Shown here: positions 14,910 to 22,241 of the stretch, piece by piece
How positions within the stretch are numbered: position 1 is the first letter of the stretch
Layout of the letters: every line of letters starts with the position of its first letter
From: Acidobacteriota bacterium
Lineage (GTDB): Bacteria > Acidobacteriota > Terriglobia > Bryobacterales > Bryobacteraceae
Direction: 5' to 3'
NCBI GenBank assembly: GCA_016871015.1
Contig: VFZX01000045.1
Span: 1 to 32,342 of the forward strand
Length of the DNA: 32,342 bases
Position numbers and translations under genes: made by a program
Notes under the pieces: generated by a model
Seen by the model: the letters and a program-made list of their open reading frames with translations, nothing else
Databases searched by the model: none
What the model was told of the DNA's origin: nothing

Positions 14910-16289
14910 TTGAACTCGATTCTGTTCTGGAACGGCGTTGCCCTGGACGCCAACAAAGAAAGCCATTCAAACGGCAACCGCGAAAACACGGGACCGACGC
15001 TGAGCGCGCGTGCGCTGGCTCTCGTCCATTTGGCGATGCATGACGCCTACTTTGGCATCAACACGCCCACAACATTCACCCCATACACGAGCGGATTGCC
15101 AGGCGTCCCGTCTCCGGGAGCGGGAGCATCGGCGGACGCCGCCGTGGCCTCGGCGGCCTACTTCATGCTCACCAAGCTCTTTCCGAGCCAGAAAGCTGCA
15201 TTTGACGCCAAGCTCGCCGCCGCGCCGATGTCCGGTGGCGACGCGTCGAAGGGCCACATGTTCGGTGTCGCCATCGCCAATTTCATCAACAACCTGCGCA
15301 AGGATGATCCGGGGGCCGGCGATGCGGGTTATTCACCCTCAGCCGCACGCGGCGCGCACCGTCCCGACCCGGACAACCCGCAGGGATTCCATGCTCCCTA
15401 CTATGGCGATTCCGCCAAGCTGTTCTCGAGCAACGCGTTCACTCTGGCTCCTCCACCGATGCCAGGCAGTGCGGACTATGCAACCGCGCTCGAACAAGTG
15501 CGGCGGTTGGGGATCAAGCACGGATGGCAGGAAACGGCGGGATCTGCCGCACGGACGCCCGAGCAGACGGTGATCGGTGTGTACTGGGGCTACGACGGCG
15601 CCAACGGCCTTGGCACGCCGCCCCGGCTTTACAATCAGATCGTACTTAAGGTCATGGAGGCGCAGGGAACCACCGACCCGGTGGACCAGTTGCGGCTGCT
15701 CACGATGGCCAACGTGGCGATGGCCGACGCCGGGATCCTGGCGTGGAAGGAAAAGTATCGCTACGACCTGTGGCGTCCGGTGGTCGGGATCCGCGAACAC
15801 GACAGCGGCATGGGTCCACTGGGTTCGGTGCAAGCCGGACCGATGGCCGCCGATTGCGATCCGGCGTGGCTCCCGATGGGCGCTCCGGCGTCGAACTCTT
15901 CGAAGAAGAACTTTACGCCGGACTTCCCTGCCTATCCGTCCGGGCACGCGACGTTTGGCGCGGCTTCCCTGCAGGTGGTCCGGTTATGGTACGGAATCGG
16001 TTCGAAGAATCCCGACATGCTGCTGACGTCGTTTGTCTCCGATGAGTACGACGGCAAGACACGCGACAACGCGGGTACGGCCCGGCCGCGGTACGTCCGC
16101 CACTTCCCCAAAGGACTGTGGGACATGATTCGCGAGAACGGTGAGAGCCGCGTGTACCTGGGAGTCCACTGGATCTTCGATGCGTTCGCGGAAGGCGACC
16201 AGGACAAGTACGACAAGCAAATCGGCGGAGTGCCCCTTGGGCTGTGGATCGCCGAGAGCATCTTCAACAAGAAGATGACACGCGCGTAG
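14910..16289 (+). CDS. Vanadium-dependent haloperoxidase-family protein (PAP2 superfamily)
   Basis: The product has 459 residues. All vanadate-binding residues of the haloperoxidase/acid phosphatase superfamily are present: Lys282 and Arg289 in KYRYDLWRP, Ser344-Gly345-His346 in YPSGHATFG, and Arg414 and His420 in SRVYLGVHW. The 7- and 6-residue spacings equal those of fungal vanadium chloroperoxidase. These enzymes oxidise halide with hydrogen peroxide; bacterial relatives of this subfamily are mostly uncharacterised and some may act as phosphatases. The protein starts at TTG behind a strong ribosome-binding site and shows no signal peptide, which is unusual because many relatives are exported. 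It follows the P-II gene by 46 bases on the same strand, with no evident functional link, and converges with the coiled-coil gene, 6 bases apart. Confidence 0.87.
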   Translation: MNSILFWNGVALDANKESHSNGNRENTGPTLSARALALVHLAMHDAYFGINTPTTFTPYTSGLPGVPSPGAGASADAAVASAAYFMLTKLFPSQKAAFDAKLAAAPMSGGDASKGHMFGVAIANFINNLRKDDPGAGDAGYSPSAARGAHRPDPDNPQGFHAPYYGDSAKLFSSNAFTLAPPPMPGSADYATALEQVRRLGIKHGWQETAGSAARTPEQTVIGVYWGYDGANGLGTPPRLYNQIVLKVMEAQGTTDPVDQLRLLTMANVAMADAGILAWKEKYRYDLWRPVVGIREHDSGMGPLGSVQAGPMAADCDPAWLPMGAPASNSSKKNFTPDFPAYPSGHATFGAASLQVVRLWYGIGSKNPDMLLTSFVSDEYDGKTRDNAGTARPRYVRHFPKGLWDMIRENGESRVYLGVHWIFDAFAEGDQDKYDKQIGGVPLGLWIAESIFNKKMTRA

Positions 16290-16295
16290 TCCGGA

Positions 16296-17090
16296 TCAGC
16301 GGCGGGCGGCGGCCAGCTCCTTTTGGAGACGCGCCGCCTGCGCACCCAACGCCTGCAGTTGCCTGAGGTCGTCCTCGGCCAGTGCAATCGCGCTCTGGAT
16401 ACGGGAAAGGTCGACGCCGGCGGGCAGTTCCGCGCCTCGCACCGCGAGTGAGCGGTACTGGTCCGTCACTTCGCGGTAGCGGCGCTGCAGATTGTTCAGA
16501 TGTAGGTCGCGGCGGCGGCTGAGGTCCTCGATCTCCTCGGCCGCCTTGCGGAGGCGCGCCAAATTGCGGGCGTTCTCTTCCTGCCGGGACAATAACTCAC
16601 GGTTCGATGTCTCGATTCGAACCACGCGCTCGCTCCGTCCCTTCACCTCCGCTTCGAGCGCGGCGTTCACCCGGTTCGCTGTTTCCAGACGGTCTTTCAG
16701 ATCGGTCTCCGCGGCCGCAAGTTTTCGGATCTCAGCTTCGGCGGCTGCGGACTTTTCTTCGAGTTCGTGGATCCGGTTCTCGGCATCCCCGAGGCTCTTC
16801 TGTGCCGTGGCGAGACGGGTCTGCTTCTCATCGGCCAGCTTAACGAGCGCGTCAAGGGTCGCCGTATCTTGCTTGACGATGGTGCGTTCTTCGACCCGCG
16901 TGGAAGGTGCAGGGGGAGCGGGCGCGGGATCGGCGGCTGCTTTCGGCGGCTCAACCGCCGGAGGCGCGGCGGAGATTGCATTCAGGCGCGCGATCTCGGC
17001 GCGCAGCTCTTGCGTCGATGCCGCCTCCTTCCGCCACCGCACGGCAACCACCGCAAGTGCAAGAGCGAGTACAACCGTGAGGATACGCAT
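16296..17090 (-). CDS. Membrane-anchored coiled-coil protein
   Basis: The product has 264 residues. It begins with a hydrophobic helix (about residues 1-18) that is either an uncleaved anchor or a signal peptide. A Pro/Ala-rich linker (about 42-65) follows, and then a long heptad-rich coiled coil (about 75-200) of Leu, Ala, Glu, Lys and Arg. A second short helical pair is near the C-terminus. I recognise no catalytic domain, and a structural or scaffold role is an inference. ATG at 17090 is preferred to a GTG six bases earlier because GGAGG then sits 5 bases upstream. The gene starts 2 bases after the stop of the VWA-like gene, so the barrel, VWA-like and coiled-coil genes form one coupled operon. 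Confidence 0.78.
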   Translation of the reverse strand: MRILTVVLALALAVVAVRWRKEAASTQELRAEIARLNAISAAPPAVEPPKAAADPAPAPPAPSTRVEERTIVKQDTATLDALVKLADEKQTRLATAQKSLGDAENRIHELEEKSAAAEAEIRKLAAAETDLKDRLETANRVNAALEAEVKGRSERVVRIETSNRELLSRQEENARNLARLRKAAEEIEDLSRRRDLHLNNLQRRYREVTDQYRSLAVRGAELPAGVDLSRIQSAIALAEDDLRQLQALGAQAARLQKELAAARR

Positions 17091-17092
17091 GA

Positions 17093-17989
17093 TCACCTCC
17101 GGATCGCGATTCGCTGCCGGTGTTTCAACACACGGCCTTCCGCAGCCAATTCCAAACTCACCTGCCGGACTTTGGTCACCGGCAGTTGGATCTCGGCCGT
17201 GTGCGCGGCGAGAATCCGTTGGAACGTGGATCCCACCGCCGCCGGAATCTCAGCCACCGAACGGCAAAACTCGGCGTTGCCGCCGGTGGAGGCGGCGATC
17301 TCCACCAGCCCTGTCTGATAGGCCTCGTTCAGACGGTCGTTCTGATAGTTCAGATGGACAATGAACAGCGGCGCTTCTGCTACGCTGATCGAGGCCAGGA
17401 GCTGCGAGATCTTCTCCTTGATCAAACCCTCGGGAAACCGGCGGCTCATGTCGCGGGAGTCGCTCGAATTGATCACGGGATTCGTGTAATCCTCCCGGTA
17501 GTTTCCGATCGTGGAATCCGTGACGTAGAGGACGGCGATCCGCACGCTTGCCTTCGCGGTCACCGCATCGGCAATCTGCAGCGCGGTTTCGACTGTACCC
17601 AGCAGACCCGCGCGTCCACTGATGTTCAACGAGCGGATGGTGTCGGCCGCCTTGGCCCGGTCCGGTCCCGGATCGAGCAGGACTTGAAGTCCGTCCTGCG
17701 CGCGCAGGAGTCCGGCGTAGACGTTCGCGGGAAGCTCGTTGATGGAGGCGATCACAGCTTCGCGGGCTGGATCGGCCAGCGCCAGGTCGCCAGCCAGATC
17801 GAGGACGACGAGCAACATCATGTCGTGCCGGGGACCGTGAGCCCGGACCACGCGGGCGGGTTTGCCATCCACCGTTGCCTGGATTGACGTCACAGGGTCG
17901 CCCTCCACCCAATAGGGTACGTGCAGCGTCGTCCGCGGCGGGCCCGCGGCGAACATTGTGGCGGCGGTAAGGAACGTTGCGAGCCGCAT
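17093..17989 (-). CDS. Secreted VWA-like domain protein
   Basis: This 298-residue secreted protein has a short signal peptide (MRLATFLTAATMFAAG). The core (about residues 55-220) follows the von Willebrand factor A fold: a hydrophobic strand MMLLVVLDLAGDLAL, helix, strand VYAGLLRAQ, then VRIAVLYVTDST and APLFIVHLNY. This resembles the VWFA-related proteins widespread in Acidobacteriota. The metal-binding DxSxS motif is replaced by DLAGD, so a standard MIDAS site is missing or altered. These domains usually mediate protein contacts. The ATG shares one base with the stop of the barrel gene (TGATG), with GAGG about 10 bases upstream, so translation is probably coupled. It may be a periplasmic partner of the barrel and coiled-coil proteins; this is inferred from gene order. 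Confidence 0.72.
   Translation of the reverse strand: MRLATFLTAATMFAAGPPRTTLHVPYWVEGDPVTSIQATVDGKPARVVRAHGPRHDMMLLVVLDLAGDLALADPAREAVIASINELPANVYAGLLRAQDGLQVLLDPGPDRAKAADTIRSLNISGRAGLLGTVETALQIADAVTAKASVRIAVLYVTDSTIGNYREDYTNPVINSSDSRDMSRRFPEGLIKEKISQLLASISVAEAPLFIVHLNYQNDRLNEAYQTGLVEIAASTGGNAEFCRSVAEIPAAVGSTFQRILAAHTAEIQLPVTKVRQVSLELAAEGRVLKHRQRIAIRR
17096..17100 (-). promoter_or_regulatory. Shine-Dalgarno GGAGG of the coiled-coil gene
   Basis: On the minus strand GGAGG ends 5 bases before the ATG at 17090 and overlaps the 3' end of the VWA-like gene. It selects ATG over the overlapping GTG at 17096. Confidence 0.55.
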
Positions 17990-20775
17990 CAGAAATTGAA
18001 CCTCACTCCGAGCTGGACCACGCGGCTTCCGCGCGATCCAATGATCTTGCCCGCGTTCACGTTGGGTGCGTTCGGCGGCCCGATCACCGTGTCGGGCTCG
18101 GTCCAGTCGGCGTGGTTGATGAAGTTCAAACCCACCGCGCTGAACTCGACGCTACGCTCCGGCGTCAGCGGAATCCGCTTGTTCACCGAAAGGTCGTGAT
18201 TCTGATTGATCGGCATGCGCAGCGAAGGATGCGTACGCGCTGCGTTGCCGACGCTGAAATCCGAGGGATGGGAGAACGCCGCCGGGTTGAACCACTGGTT
18301 CGGGCCAGGATCCGGTACATGCGGATCGACCCCAGGGACGGCGTTGACGTTGAGTGCGTCGACCAGTCCGCCGGTATTGTTGAACTGCGGACGCAGCGCC
18401 ACGGGCTCGCCGCTTGCCACCGTGCTTTGTCCGCTCAGCGACCATCCCTCGACGAAGTGCCGCCGCCAATCGGTGACCGTCAACAGAGCCCGGTTGGCGC
18501 CAAGCGGTAGCTCGTACATGTAGGTGAGCGTGAACCGGTGCGGAGTGTTCGAAGCCGTCAGCGACCATTCGTTGCGCCGGTTGAAGAAATCCTGAATGCC
18601 GTAGGGACCCGAATAGTTGTCCATCTGCTTGGAGAACTCGTAGTAGGCCGAAACCGACAGCCCGCCCGACGCCCGCTTTTCAAGCCGCACGTAGCCGGCG
18701 TCGCGCTGATACCGGCCCTCCGGCCATGAACTGTAGACGTCGAACCGCTGGTAGTGCGGAAACGGCCGCAACGAGCGGTTGAAGTTCTCGTCGTTCAGCC
18801 GGTCCCGCAGAGCCAGGTTGTCAAGATGAATGGCGTTGGGATTCGAGCCTGAGTTACTGAGGAACATGTTGCGGCCCTCGGAGTGTCCAAAGCCGACGGT
18901 GACTACCGCCGCGCCCGGCAGTTCGTGCTCCGCCGACAGTGACGCGGACTGGTAGGTTGGCTGGCGGCCCGTTGGCTCGATCAGGTCGGCCGTGGTGAAG
19001 TTGGCGCTCTCTGGACGTGGATCCGGAAACGGCCGCGGCAACGGGGGAAAGCTGCCGGAAAGCACGAATGCCGGATCGAGCTGCGGGTTGAGCGACACCC
19101 AGGTGGGAGATCCGTTGAAGGCCTGCGTGCCCCACTGGCCCAGGTACACCGGAGTTGGCGTGTAGGATCGCGAGTAGCCAGCCCGTGCCACAGACCGCGT
19201 GCGTCCAAGGATGTTCCAGGCGATACTTGCGCTGGGCTCGGCCGTGAGCTGGAGCGGCTGAAAAGCGCGGGGAGTCCCTTCGTGCCCGGCAACGATCATT
19301 GCGCCGGGCCGTCCGTTGAACGGATTGGTGCGGTCGAAAGCCACGGTGGACTGGCGGTCGTACCTTTCGACGCGCGGCGTGGCGCCATCGAAGTTAAGCC
19401 CGAGACTCAGCGTGAGACCTGGCCGGAGATCCACCTGGTCGCGCAGGCCAACCAGGCCGCGCGACCGCCGGAAGTAGGAAGGTGAGATGACGATGCTCTG
19501 TTCCACAGTCTCCGGCGCCCCCAGCAGGAAGCTGGCGAATGGATGGCCGGTGTTGACGATGCCCGGCAGGCTTGTGTATCCCGCGCCGAAGCGGAATGCG
19601 CCGTTGGGATACTGTGGCCAGAACGTGTTGATCTGCTCCCGCGTGAGCTGGACGATCGCGCGCAGCCGGTGTTCCTTCCAGCGGCTGGAGAAGGAGTCGG
19701 TCGCGGTGTAGGTGTTGCGTGCGTTGCGGGACAACGGGTAGGACTGGCCCATGCCGAGGTAGGTCGAATTGAAACGGTAAAAGGGAAACGGCTGCCCGGT
19801 GGAGTCCAGGCTCGGCCGGTTTTCGGACTGGTCCGTGGACGCGTCGAGCGTGAGTGTGTTGATGTTGCGCGCCGACTGAGTGAAAACGTGCTCCGCGGTC
19901 AGGCGGCGGCTGCGCCGGTCGCGCGGGACAGACCCTGAGTTGGCGATGGTGGGGAAGTACGGCGCTTGCCCGTCGTGTCCGTTCGAATAGTTGATGCCGC
20001 AGCCGAGCCGGTGCCGGTCGCTCGCCGTGTGATCCACTCGCGCGATGATCCCGTCGGCGCGGTTCACTTCCGGGGCAACGATGAAATAGTTGTTGCGGAA
20101 GAAGGGGCCGGCGTCGGCATTGGGAGCCGGATAATATTGCATCGTATCCTTCGCCACCGGATTCAGCCGCGCCGTAGGAATCCGGTTCCCAGGGAACGGC
20201 AGACGGTTGTACTGGAGGTTGTTCCGCGTGACCGGCTGTCCGGGGCCGTACGCCGGATTCGGACTCGTTGTCGCCGGATCGTAGATGGAAAGCGGCTGGC
20301 CCGCCTGATCGACGACATGCGCCCAGTCGCCAGTGCGTTCCCCCATTGTGGGGATCGTGCGGAGCTGGCTGCGCGCCACCTTCTCCCGCATTCCTTCATA
20401 AGTGACGGAAAATGTCGTGTTTCGTCCCCCGTGGAACAGCTTGGGCACGTACACGGGACCGGTGACGTTAAATCCGAACTGGTTGCGCCGGAGCAAGCCC
20501 TGGGTCCCGCCGCGCTGCACGATCTCGTGCGGTACCGCGTCGAGGAAGTTGTTCCGCAGGTTTTCGAACAGCCGCCCGTGCCAGGATCCACTCCGCTGCC
20601 GGGAGTCTCGGCGGGCCGGCGAGTCGGCGCGCAATCCCAGATTCCGGCTCTGGGTCCGGAATTCATCGACAGCTTTTTGCATCTCGGTGCGCGCCGGGGA
20701 TGGGTTGCGCTGCTGAGCTGACGCTACGAACGCCCACGCCACCAGCGCGGCGGCCGCGCGTGGAGGTCGGATCAT
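17989..20775 (-). CDS. TonB-receptor-like outer-membrane beta-barrel lacking the usual N-terminal domains
   Basis: The product has 928 residues, with a signal peptide at 1-20 (MIRPPRAAAALVAWAFVASA). From about residue 63 it follows the acidobacterial TonB-dependent-receptor pattern: GSWHGRLFENLRNN, the NQFGFNVTGPVY strand, and NTTFSVTYEGMRE. It ends in a C-terminal aromatic strand LGVRFNF, the barrel-closing signature. Typical relatives carry a carboxypeptidase-regulatory-like domain and a plug before this point (about 200 residues); here only about 40 residues separate the signal peptide from the barrel region, and I see no TonB box. It is either an open pore or porin-like variant, or is gated by another protein. 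I chose the ATG at 20775 because it starts a signal peptide and avoids overlap with the divergent gene. It is the first gene of a three-gene operon. Confidence 0.82.
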   Translation of the reverse strand: MIRPPRAAAALVAWAFVASAQQRNPSPARTEMQKAVDEFRTQSRNLGLRADSPARRDSRQRSGSWHGRLFENLRNNFLDAVPHEIVQRGGTQGLLRRNQFGFNVTGPVYVPKLFHGGRNTTFSVTYEGMREKVARSQLRTIPTMGERTGDWAHVVDQAGQPLSIYDPATTSPNPAYGPGQPVTRNNLQYNRLPFPGNRIPTARLNPVAKDTMQYYPAPNADAGPFFRNNYFIVAPEVNRADGIIARVDHTASDRHRLGCGINYSNGHDGQAPYFPTIANSGSVPRDRRSRRLTAEHVFTQSARNINTLTLDASTDQSENRPSLDSTGQPFPFYRFNSTYLGMGQSYPLSRNARNTYTATDSFSSRWKEHRLRAIVQLTREQINTFWPQYPNGAFRFGAGYTSLPGIVNTGHPFASFLLGAPETVEQSIVISPSYFRRSRGLVGLRDQVDLRPGLTLSLGLNFDGATPRVERYDRQSTVAFDRTNPFNGRPGAMIVAGHEGTPRAFQPLQLTAEPSASIAWNILGRTRSVARAGYSRSYTPTPVYLGQWGTQAFNGSPTWVSLNPQLDPAFVLSGSFPPLPRPFPDPRPESANFTTADLIEPTGRQPTYQSASLSAEHELPGAAVVTVGFGHSEGRNMFLSNSGSNPNAIHLDNLALRDRLNDENFNRSLRPFPHYQRFDVYSSWPEGRYQRDAGYVRLEKRASGGLSVSAYYEFSKQMDNYSGPYGIQDFFNRRNEWSLTASNTPHRFTLTYMYELPLGANRALLTVTDWRRHFVEGWSLSGQSTVASGEPVALRPQFNNTGGLVDALNVNAVPGVDPHVPDPGPNQWFNPAAFSHPSDFSVGNAARTHPSLRMPINQNHDLSVNKRIPLTPERSVEFSAVGLNFINHADWTEPDTVIGPPNAPNVNAGKIIGSRGSRVVQLGVRFNF

Positions 20776-20834: not shown

Positions 20835-22241
20835 GTGCTGATCCGCGTTTGCTTCCATGCTCTCCCAATGCTGCTCACCGCGGCGGACTGGCCCCAGTTC
20901 CGGGGGCCGAACTCTTCCGGACTTGGCGAAGCCAGGGACCTGCCGGTCGAGTTTGGGCCGGACAAAAACGTCCTCTGGCGGACCCCACTGCCGGAAGGCT
21001 ACTCGTCGCCGGTACTCGCCGGACCACGGATCTACGTCACCGCGGCCGGGGACGGCAAGCTGTTCACGATCGCCATGGAACGCGCCACGGGCCGGATCCT
21101 GTGGCGGCGCGAGGCGCCCCGGCCGCGCGTGCAGGAGATGCAGCGGGCCAACTCGCCGGCGTCCGCGAGCCCAGTTTCCGACGGTGCCAACGTCTACGTG
21201 TTCTTCCAGGATTTCGGCTTGCTCGGCTATGGTCCGGATGGCAACGAGATGTGGCGCATGGCGCTCGGTCCGTTCAACAATCCGTTCGGACACGGAGCGT
21301 CGCCAGTGCTTGCGGGCGGCACGCTGCTGATGAACATCGACCAGGACACGGATTCCTACCTGCTTGCGTTGGACAAGAACTCGGGCAAGGTGCTCTGGCG
21401 CGCCGGGCGTCCCGTCGCGCAACGGGGCTATGCGACCCCGGTGCTGTACAAGGATCAGGTGTTGATCGCGGGCTCCTACCGGCTCACGGCGTACGATCTG
21501 CGGACCGGCAAGCAGGTCTGGTTCATTCGCAAGCTGCCCTGGCAAATCAAGCCGACGCCAGTGCTCGACGGCGACACGCTCTACTTCACGACGTATTCGG
21601 CCGAGTCCGCCCCGGGCCAGCAGGAGAACGTGCCGGAATTCGCAGAGGCGCTGGCCAGGATGGACGCCAACAAGGACGGCAAGCTCTCGAAGGATGAGAT
21701 TCCTGACGCCAAGGTGAAGGCCCGGTTCGACGAGTATCTGGACCTCGATGACACCGGCTTCCTCGAAGCTCGGGATTGGGACCAGTTCCGCGAGCGGCGG
21801 CAAGGCGAGAGCGGACTGCGCGCCTACAATATCGCTGGCGCCAAGGGCGACATCACGGACAGCGGATTCCTGTGGAAGTCGGCGAAGTCGCTTCCCAATG
21901 TTCCCTCACCGCTGATCTACCAGGGCGTGCTGTACACGCTGAAGGAAGGCGGCGTGTTCACCTCGATCGATCCCAAGACGGGCGAGGTCCTCAAGCAGGC
22001 CCGCCTGGAGGGCGCGCTTGGCGCATACTTCGCTTCGCCGGTAGCATCCGACGGCAAGGTCTATGCCGCGAGCGAAGAGGGCGCCATCACGGTGCTCAAG
22101 GCGGGCGCGCGGTGGGAGATCCTCAAGGTGAACCAGATGCACGAGCCGGCCAAGGCGACTCCCGCGCTTGTGGATGGCAGGATCTACTTGCGCACGTTCA
22201 AGGCACTGTACTGCTTCGCGCAGGAGCGGCAGATTCAATGA
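20835..22241 (+). CDS. PQQ-binding-like beta-propeller protein with EF-hand insert (paralogue)
   Basis: This 468-residue exported protein starts at GTG with a short signal peptide (about 17 residues, MLIRVCFHALPMLLTAA) before the mature start DWPQFRGPNSSG. Blade motifs are LWRREAP, SPVSDGANVYVFF, SGKVLWR and GDTLYFTT. The mid-protein insert carries a canonical EF-hand loop DANKDGKLSKDE and a degenerate one, DLDDTGFLEARD. It is a diverged copy of the protein at 585-1982, aligning along its whole length. Its stop overlaps the start of the GMC oxidoreductase gene (ATGA), so the two are translated together. This makes it a likely periplasmic partner in an oxidation system, as a scaffold or a redox carrier; cofactor binding is not proven. 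Confidence 0.87.
   Translation: MLIRVCFHALPMLLTAADWPQFRGPNSSGLGEARDLPVEFGPDKNVLWRTPLPEGYSSPVLAGPRIYVTAAGDGKLFTIAMERATGRILWRREAPRPRVQEMQRANSPASASPVSDGANVYVFFQDFGLLGYGPDGNEMWRMALGPFNNPFGHGASPVLAGGTLLMNIDQDTDSYLLALDKNSGKVLWRAGRPVAQRGYATPVLYKDQVLIAGSYRLTAYDLRTGKQVWFIRKLPWQIKPTPVLDGDTLYFTTYSAESAPGQQENVPEFAEALARMDANKDGKLSKDEIPDAKVKARFDEYLDLDDTGFLEARDWDQFRERRQGESGLRAYNIAGAKGDITDSGFLWKSAKSLPNVPSPLIYQGVLYTLKEGGVFTSIDPKTGEVLKQARLEGALGAYFASPVASDGKVYAASEEGAITVLKAGARWEILKVNQMHEPAKATPALVDGRIYLRTFKALYCFAQERQIQ

Follow-up and report, generated by a model that had tools for sequence, protein, structure and literature searches.

How does an outer-membrane barrel of the TonB-dependent transporter (TBDT) type serve a cell when it carries no plug, and what is the role of the exported protein with a von Willebrand factor A (VWA)-like fold whose gene follows directly behind it? 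This question is raised by a stretch of 32,342 nucleotides (nt), hereafter the window, which is contig VFZX01000045.1 of the Acidobacteriota assembly GCA_016871015.1 (Bryobacteraceae), a genome of 8.66 Mb in 720 contigs in which the window is contig C45. Between positions 16296 and 20775 it carries three open reading frames (ORFs), all confirmed and all on the minus strand, encoding a barrel, a VWA-like protein and a coiled-coil protein, which an original prediction, made from the letters of the window, had taken for a fixed trio forming a shared complex across the envelope. Comparison with relatives points to a smaller unit: what is conserved is the pair of barrel and VWA genes, that is, a plug-less barrel with a constant and closely spaced neighbour encoding an altered VWA protein. 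The three genes are as follows.

17989 to 20775, minus strand: plug-less barrel of TBDT type, 928 amino acids (aa; ATG at 20775, stop at 17989), matching Pfam PF25183 with E 1.7e-125 and giving no Plug or CarboxypepD match
17093 to 17989, minus strand: exported VWA-like protein, 298 aa (ATG at 17989, stop at 17093), with an export signal read by eye
16296 to 17090, minus strand: coiled-coil protein with a membrane anchor, 264 aa if read from the ATG at 17090 or 266 aa if read from a GTG at 17096

The barrel stop and the VWA start share one base (TGATG), and the ATG of the coiled-coil gene lies two bases past the VWA stop with GGAGG just upstream, so that the ORF coordinates bear out the predicted 1-base overlap and 2-base gap; the alternative GTG start would instead give an overlap of 4 with the VWA gene.

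The barrel and VWA gene pair

Of 57 loci fetched, six (L003, L005, L006, L017, L019 and L020) were left out as lying on the same contigs as later loci, which gives 51 non-redundant loci including the window itself (L001). A relative of the barrel gene lies directly upstream of the VWA gene, on the same strand, in all 51, at a distance of -4 to +2 nt in 29 and of 8 to 72 nt in the other 22, these gaps being approximate since start codons were picked by rule. Fifteen further regions (L095-L109), 12 of them from genomes outside the 51, hold barrel and VWA together in 15 of 15 cases, a contig end truncating two of the barrels. The expectation that the genes would be neighbours in relatives is therefore borne out for these two, which adjoin in every locus read.

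The VWA gene occurs as one copy each in 41 of 61 genomes, the window genome included, and is present in 138 of 257 genomes of the order, where one genome was matched twice and no fewer than two of the matches (G514 and G586) are partial. A search across the phylum (396 genomes) returned seven matches: the window genome, one member of its family, two strong matches outside the class (G122, region L096, and G334, region L095) and three weak ones (45-49 bits) that were not counted as orthologues. Most of the records bearing homologues name Bryobacterales, Bryobacteraceae, Acidobacteria or Terriglobia in their titles. One record titled Acidimicrobiia (L023, VFZE01000032.1) carries the operon as well; it appears to correspond to a contig of G032, which is placed in the family of the window, and its title looks wrong. 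When barrels were sought at E up to 1e-90 among at most 42 candidates scored per genome, none was found in 18 VWA-negative relatives (drawn from 20, with G059 and G060 left out), a scope in which a miss is possible, while the same search found the barrel in 3 of 3 VWA-positive controls.

No neighbour beyond the trio is common to more than nine of the 35 loci compared. The largest shared cluster, in those nine, consists of other barrel genes at scattered positions, followed with eight by a divergent gene of the lpxD type (lipid A synthesis), which adjoins the barrel upstream in L030, L034, L035, L036, L037, L045, L055 and L057 and is not found in the window. This gene is often accompanied by genes for a lysine-decarboxylase-like protein and a SpoIIE phosphatase; one member was identified by Pfam and the others by clustering. 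A MoxR cluster, guessed for this upstream set from gene lengths, was discarded when Pfam returned LpxD, the lysine-decarboxylase-like protein and the SpoIIE phosphatase. In the window, the operon is flanked on the plus strand by the following genes.

20835 to 22241, plus strand: beta-propeller of PQQ type that has an EF-hand-like segment; its gene diverges from the barrel gene, and genes for a GMC oxidoreductase and an aldo/keto reductase come after it
14910 to 16289, plus strand: vanadium chloroperoxidase-like (vanadium-haloperoxidase-like) gene (VCPO_N, E 2.4e-26), convergent with the operon

Loss of the plug

Many barrels among the 51 loci are cut at the locus end; 29 besides that of the window are full-length. 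In all 30, PF25183 is the sole Pfam match at E up to 0.01, and Pfam scans found Plug (PF07715) in 0 of 30 and CarboxypepD_reg in none of them. For comparison, the 30 best PF25183 matches of the window genome were taken as paralogues and read as stop-to-stop frames; CarboxypepD_reg is matched in 29 of them and Plug in 17. The Pfam Plug profile is evidently insensitive, and the claim of plug loss is therefore carried by the length of the N-terminus and by the structural model. Before the first strand stand 57-81 residues (median 63) in the 30 orthologues versus 180-446 in the paralogues, whose lengths are rough, some frames being cut by contig ends. The window genome has a very large receptor repertoire, with at least 65 PF25183 barrels over the cut-off and 129 Plug matches listed.

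The open frame upstream of the chosen start measures at most 20 codons in 21 of the 29 orthologues besides the window. It runs 86-315 codons further in L030, L034, L038, L055 and L057, and four of these five stretches overlap the divergent lpxD-type ORF; when the frames of these five and of L036 were extended, all six matched PF25183 alone at E up to 0.1, with neither Plug nor CarboxypepD_reg.

The AlphaFold2 model of the window barrel has 22 long strands (counted by hand from DSSP, leaving out short extra strands), the first beginning at residue 66. Its structural matches (VIA) include PirA (5fp2, Z 23.4, 415 residues aligned, root-mean-square deviation (rmsd) 4.0) and BtuB (1nqf, Z 22.4, 401 aligned, rmsd 2.8). 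The aligned part of the model runs from residue 61-64 to 928 and begins at residue 134 of BtuB, 158 of FhuA and 162 of Cir, that is, past the plugs of these proteins and at their first barrel strand, which supports the loss. What precedes the barrel is a short conserved segment.

20590 to 20685, minus strand: N-terminal remnant, residues 31-62, with the conserved AxEEFKxxTRxLGLRxDSP and a linker; residues 31-45 form a helix in the model, at low confidence

Because the AxEEFKxxTRxLGLRxDSP segment aligns with the end of the plug of the paralogues, descent from a plugged ancestor is suggested. Taken together, sequence and model mark the protein as a 22-stranded TBDT barrel that has lost its CarboxypepD and plug domains. 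The predicted barrel is thereby confirmed in its type, and the label receptor-like is misleading, since the plug that defines a receptor was found in none of the 30 full-length orthologues.

A pseudogene or truncated gene was rejected on finding the same short N-terminus in all 30. An ordinary TonB-dependent receptor could also result if the plug were encoded elsewhere, and the plug and barrel of FpvAI can work as separate chains, according to the available part of that report (PMC10994204); however, the operon contains no plug gene, and the one candidate for a free-standing partner singled out from the 129 listed Plug matches, a short frame with a plug (G000:C25), breaks off at the end of its contig and was not retained. 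Decay of the gene, the other form of this explanation, is at odds with intact frames and a mean column identity of 62% over the 30 orthologues, and in either form we regard it as very improbable.

The VWA-like and coiled-coil proteins

Pfam VWA_2 matches the window protein at E 0.00083, below the cut-off, and reaches E 0.01 or better in 28 of 38 orthologues. The AlphaFold2 model (mean predicted local distance difference test (pLDDT) 88.9) has the Rossmann-type fold expected of a VWA domain, with Z scores of 17.2-19.2 over 163-221 residues among the 50 structural matches listed, led by 6tnj (Z 19.2, 165 aligned, rmsd 2.4) and 4fx5 (Z 19.1, 221 aligned, rmsd 5.1; VIA). The protein is single-copy in the window genome. 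Two parts of it stand out.

17786 to 17800, minus strand: altered metal-site motif DLAGD (D64-D68), replacing DxSxS; D64 is present in 51 of 51
17432 to 17503, minus strand: near-invariant loop NYREDYTNPVINSSDSRDMSRRFP, residues 163-186, at low confidence in the lone model

The altered metal site that had been predicted for the window protein proved to be a trait of the whole family. The canonical DxSxS...T...D arrangement was not found across the 51 orthologues: the fifth position (68) of the DxSxS motif is D in 46, E in four and G in one, T or S occupies the third in 32, against A or V in 19, and A, P or S stands at the expected metal-site T as we mapped it, D158 being kept in 51 of 51. The loop, with the consensus NYREDYTNPVINxSDxxDxSRxFP, covers about 25 residues and is nearly invariant among the orthologues, and it is also the least certain inner part of the model (mean pLDDT 65, 57 and 71 in blocks 161-170, 171-180 and 181-190). 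Being invariant yet apparently unfolded, it could be a segment that binds a partner. A loose twin-arginine pattern is present in 10 of 51 VWA starts, some of them doubtful, and export in the folded state is possible in some species.

A distant likeness links this protein to the acidobacterial VWFA family TIGR03436: with E values up to 0.1 admitted, 25 of 38 orthologues match it, the best at 1.4e-8. The window protein differs from that family in giving no match at E up to 1, in its changed metal site and in its plug-less barrel partner, and it is not among the 18 TIGR03436 matches of its genome, 15 of which exceed the cut-off. TIGR03436 was also searched for in three relatives whose genomes comprise one to three contigs, yielding 70 matches, 30 of which were made into loci. 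In nine of these 30 a TBDT barrel ends just upstream on the same strand, a tenth having a divergent barrel, and all nine barrel-coupled VWA frames are long (696-952 aa); the 30 also include 16 short VWFA genes, all of them without a barrel upstream on their own strand.

Eight of the nine, together with two from the window genome, make up the ten members of this second class that were read (L155-L163, L110). The gap between their genes is 1-3 nt in seven, and in the other three the longest ORFs overlap with an ambiguous start. A Pfam scan of six of the ten barrels gave CarboxypepD_reg in 6 of 6 and Plug in 0 of 6 at E up to 0.1, and in an alignment of nine the usual plug motifs give way to short linkers or to glycine-rich stretches surrounding an FLVNGS-like motif; the most that can be claimed from these sequences is that the second-class barrels have no recognisable plug. 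Their VWA metal-site motif has no second serine in the eight cases located, two of the ten having escaped the pattern. By pattern, DxSxS is found in eight of the 16 short VWFA genes, the other eight and the long uncoupled ones being without it, and the altered metal site thus goes with both barrel-coupled classes without being special to them. A FastTree phylogeny of the barrels separates the window family (30 sequences, support 1.0), the long-VWA class (10, support 1.0) and the paralogues (30, support 0.24), and it cannot tell whether the first two share one loss of the plug. As far as our searches reach, this second barrel-VWA pair has not been described.

The third gene encodes the anchored coiled coil that had been foreseen, with a strongly hydrophobic N-terminal helix (by a threshold of our own) in 38 of 44 sequences. 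Three of the coiled-coil sequences have a lipobox-like cysteine, and that of L007 looks like a true lipoprotein start. Library scans returned generic coiled-coil matches only. We read the protein as periplasmic, although its charge balance does not settle the topology. Its conservation is concentrated in the C-terminal part.

16347 to 16514, minus strand: most conserved part of the coiled coil, residues 195-250 (counted from the GTG), with invariant R195, R215 and R232 and near-invariant neighbours in an alignment of 34 rows

In tblastn searches the coiled coil lies downstream in 45 of 51 loci. The six without a match are L011, which has a similar coiled-coil ORF; L025 and L038, which end too soon; L028, which has another ORF in 834 nt; and L012 and L050, which have room downstream and no match. 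It was likewise found in none of the six regions L095-L100, four of them from a second family (f3) and two from outside the class, one region having masked bases that make the absence less certain. A profile search gave 0 of 8 in genomes that have the pair without the coiled coil versus 3 of 3 in positive controls; two of three VWA-negative genomes gave weak matches (E about 1e-7), probably to generic coiled coils. Because no coiled coil turned up in the four loci of the second family, in the two outside the class or in some loci of the window family, the core is the pair and the trio as a fixed unit does not stand. A shared complex, the other part of that proposal, is plausible because of the tight coupling and the co-occurrence of the genes.

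A proposed gate in trans and its alternatives

The best reading, which we hold tentatively as somewhat short of probable, is that the plug-less barrel has the VWA protein docked on it as a gate in trans. The core would be a two-protein outer-membrane assembly whose barrel came from a CarboxypepD-type (Oar-type) TBDT that lost its regulatory domain and its plug. TonB acts via the TonB box of the plug, as stated in the available part of one survey (PMC6434023), and from this mechanism of the family it follows that a plug-less barrel would not be opened by TonB in the known way. The VWA protein, exported by an apparent Sec- or Tat-type signal, would most likely stay in the periplasm and dock via its nearly invariant loop so as to close or gate the wide lumen; its changed metal site would suit a fixed docking role, not classical metal-dependent ligand binding. 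In most genomes of the window family the coiled coil may join, probably as a periplasmic tether or force transmitter, and the cargo, as a guess, is likelier to be a large polymer or protein than a small nutrient taken up. In favour of this reading stand the plug loss, the unbroken pairing, the fold, changed metal site and near-invariant, uncertainly modelled loop of the VWA protein, and the second class, in which barrels with no recognisable plug are coupled to long VWA proteins. Closing in trans is physically possible, since a plugless FpvAI barrel is restored in part when its plug is expressed as a separate chain, as the accessible portion of that work reports (PMC10994204).

Several observations weigh against this reading. 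Confidence in the barrel model is middling (pLDDT 76.0, predicted template modelling score 0.71, 166 residues under 50); the coiled coil is dispensable; five of the 14 long VWFA genes have no TBDT barrel within 1.5 kb, so that no neighbouring partner is needed there; and an Oar variant without its plug had reduced stability and failed to secrete PopC, in the available part of that study (PMC6434023), so that a plug-less barrel need not conduct. Finally, conservation among the orthologues is highest in the extracellular loops (0.72, versus 0.70 in strands and 0.65 in periplasmic turns, loops and turns being assigned by the usual TBDT topology), an order that does not favour a periplasmic partner.

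This last result bears on a different proposal, in which the barrel is a surface platform and the VWA protein, once across the outer membrane, rests on its extracellular loops as a lid or adhesin, much as SusD-type lipoproteins do on SusC. The lid keeps its place in the discussion because these loops are the best conserved part of the barrel; in the orthologues they are as conserved as the strands, unlike in the paralogues (0.46 versus 0.55), although the comparison is unfair since paralogues bind different ligands. Pilus VWA domains among the structural matches of the VWA model (6tnj, given above, and 7b7p, Z 17.3) fit such a surface role as well. The VWA orthologues, however, show on reading an N-terminal export signal only, with no lipobox or sorting domain noticed, though no dedicated search was made, and we consider a surface platform unlikely.

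The lumen itself might, on the other hand, stay open as a large ungated channel with the VWA protein serving as assembly factor or chaperone. FhuA with its plug removed by engineering is a passive channel, according to the part of the source available (PMC3064644), and in the window family's barrel S, R and T abound at the 159 positions inferred to point into the lumen, where conservation is higher than at the 159 facing lipid (0.73 versus 0.67). A permanently open lumen of that size should nevertheless weaken the envelope, and the constant pairing and the near-invariant loop suggest a lasting partner, so that this alternative seems to us distinctly unlikely.

The pair can be compared with the closest known systems. 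Oar-type transporters (CarboxypepD_reg, Plug and barrel) share the 22-stranded barrel and, through the CarboxypepD-bearing paralogues, are well represented in the window genome; the window barrel differs in having neither CarboxypepD_reg nor plug and in standing beside a VWA gene. SusC/SusD also joins a TBDT-type barrel to an exported partner gene, with SusC keeping its plug; as regards the partner gene, the fold encoded here is VWA and not SusD. LptD/LptE and other barrels closed by a separate protein in the lumen offer an analogy only, barrel and partner being unrelated. Oar depends on its plug and TonB box and is needed for PopC secretion in Myxococcus, and TBDTs are defined as barrel plus plug, in the portion of the survey at hand (PMC6434023). 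The paralogue groups of Solibacter include TonB plug receptors and VWA proteins, with no pairing mentioned in the available part of that paper (PMC3174227). Nothing found in open-licence PMC papers describes a VWA protein paired with a natural TBDT barrel that has no plug; the parts come from known families, and within the reach of literature searches both their combination and the absence of the plug are new.

A broader proposal, which we put forward as doubtful, is that a set of outer-membrane conduits in Acidobacteriota has discarded the covalent plug of a TBDT and passed its job to a separate VWA protein, in at least two architectures, one with a short VWA protein and no regulatory domain and the other with a long VWA protein and the regulatory domain kept. 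Such conduits would be TonB-free and driven or tethered via a membrane-anchored coiled coil or another link. Acidobacteriota are common in soil and hard to culture. If true, a natural lineage that discarded its plug and kept a constant partner would provide a ready-made test of the role of the plug, of how so wide a lumen stays safe, and of whether such barrels are TonB-free conduits.

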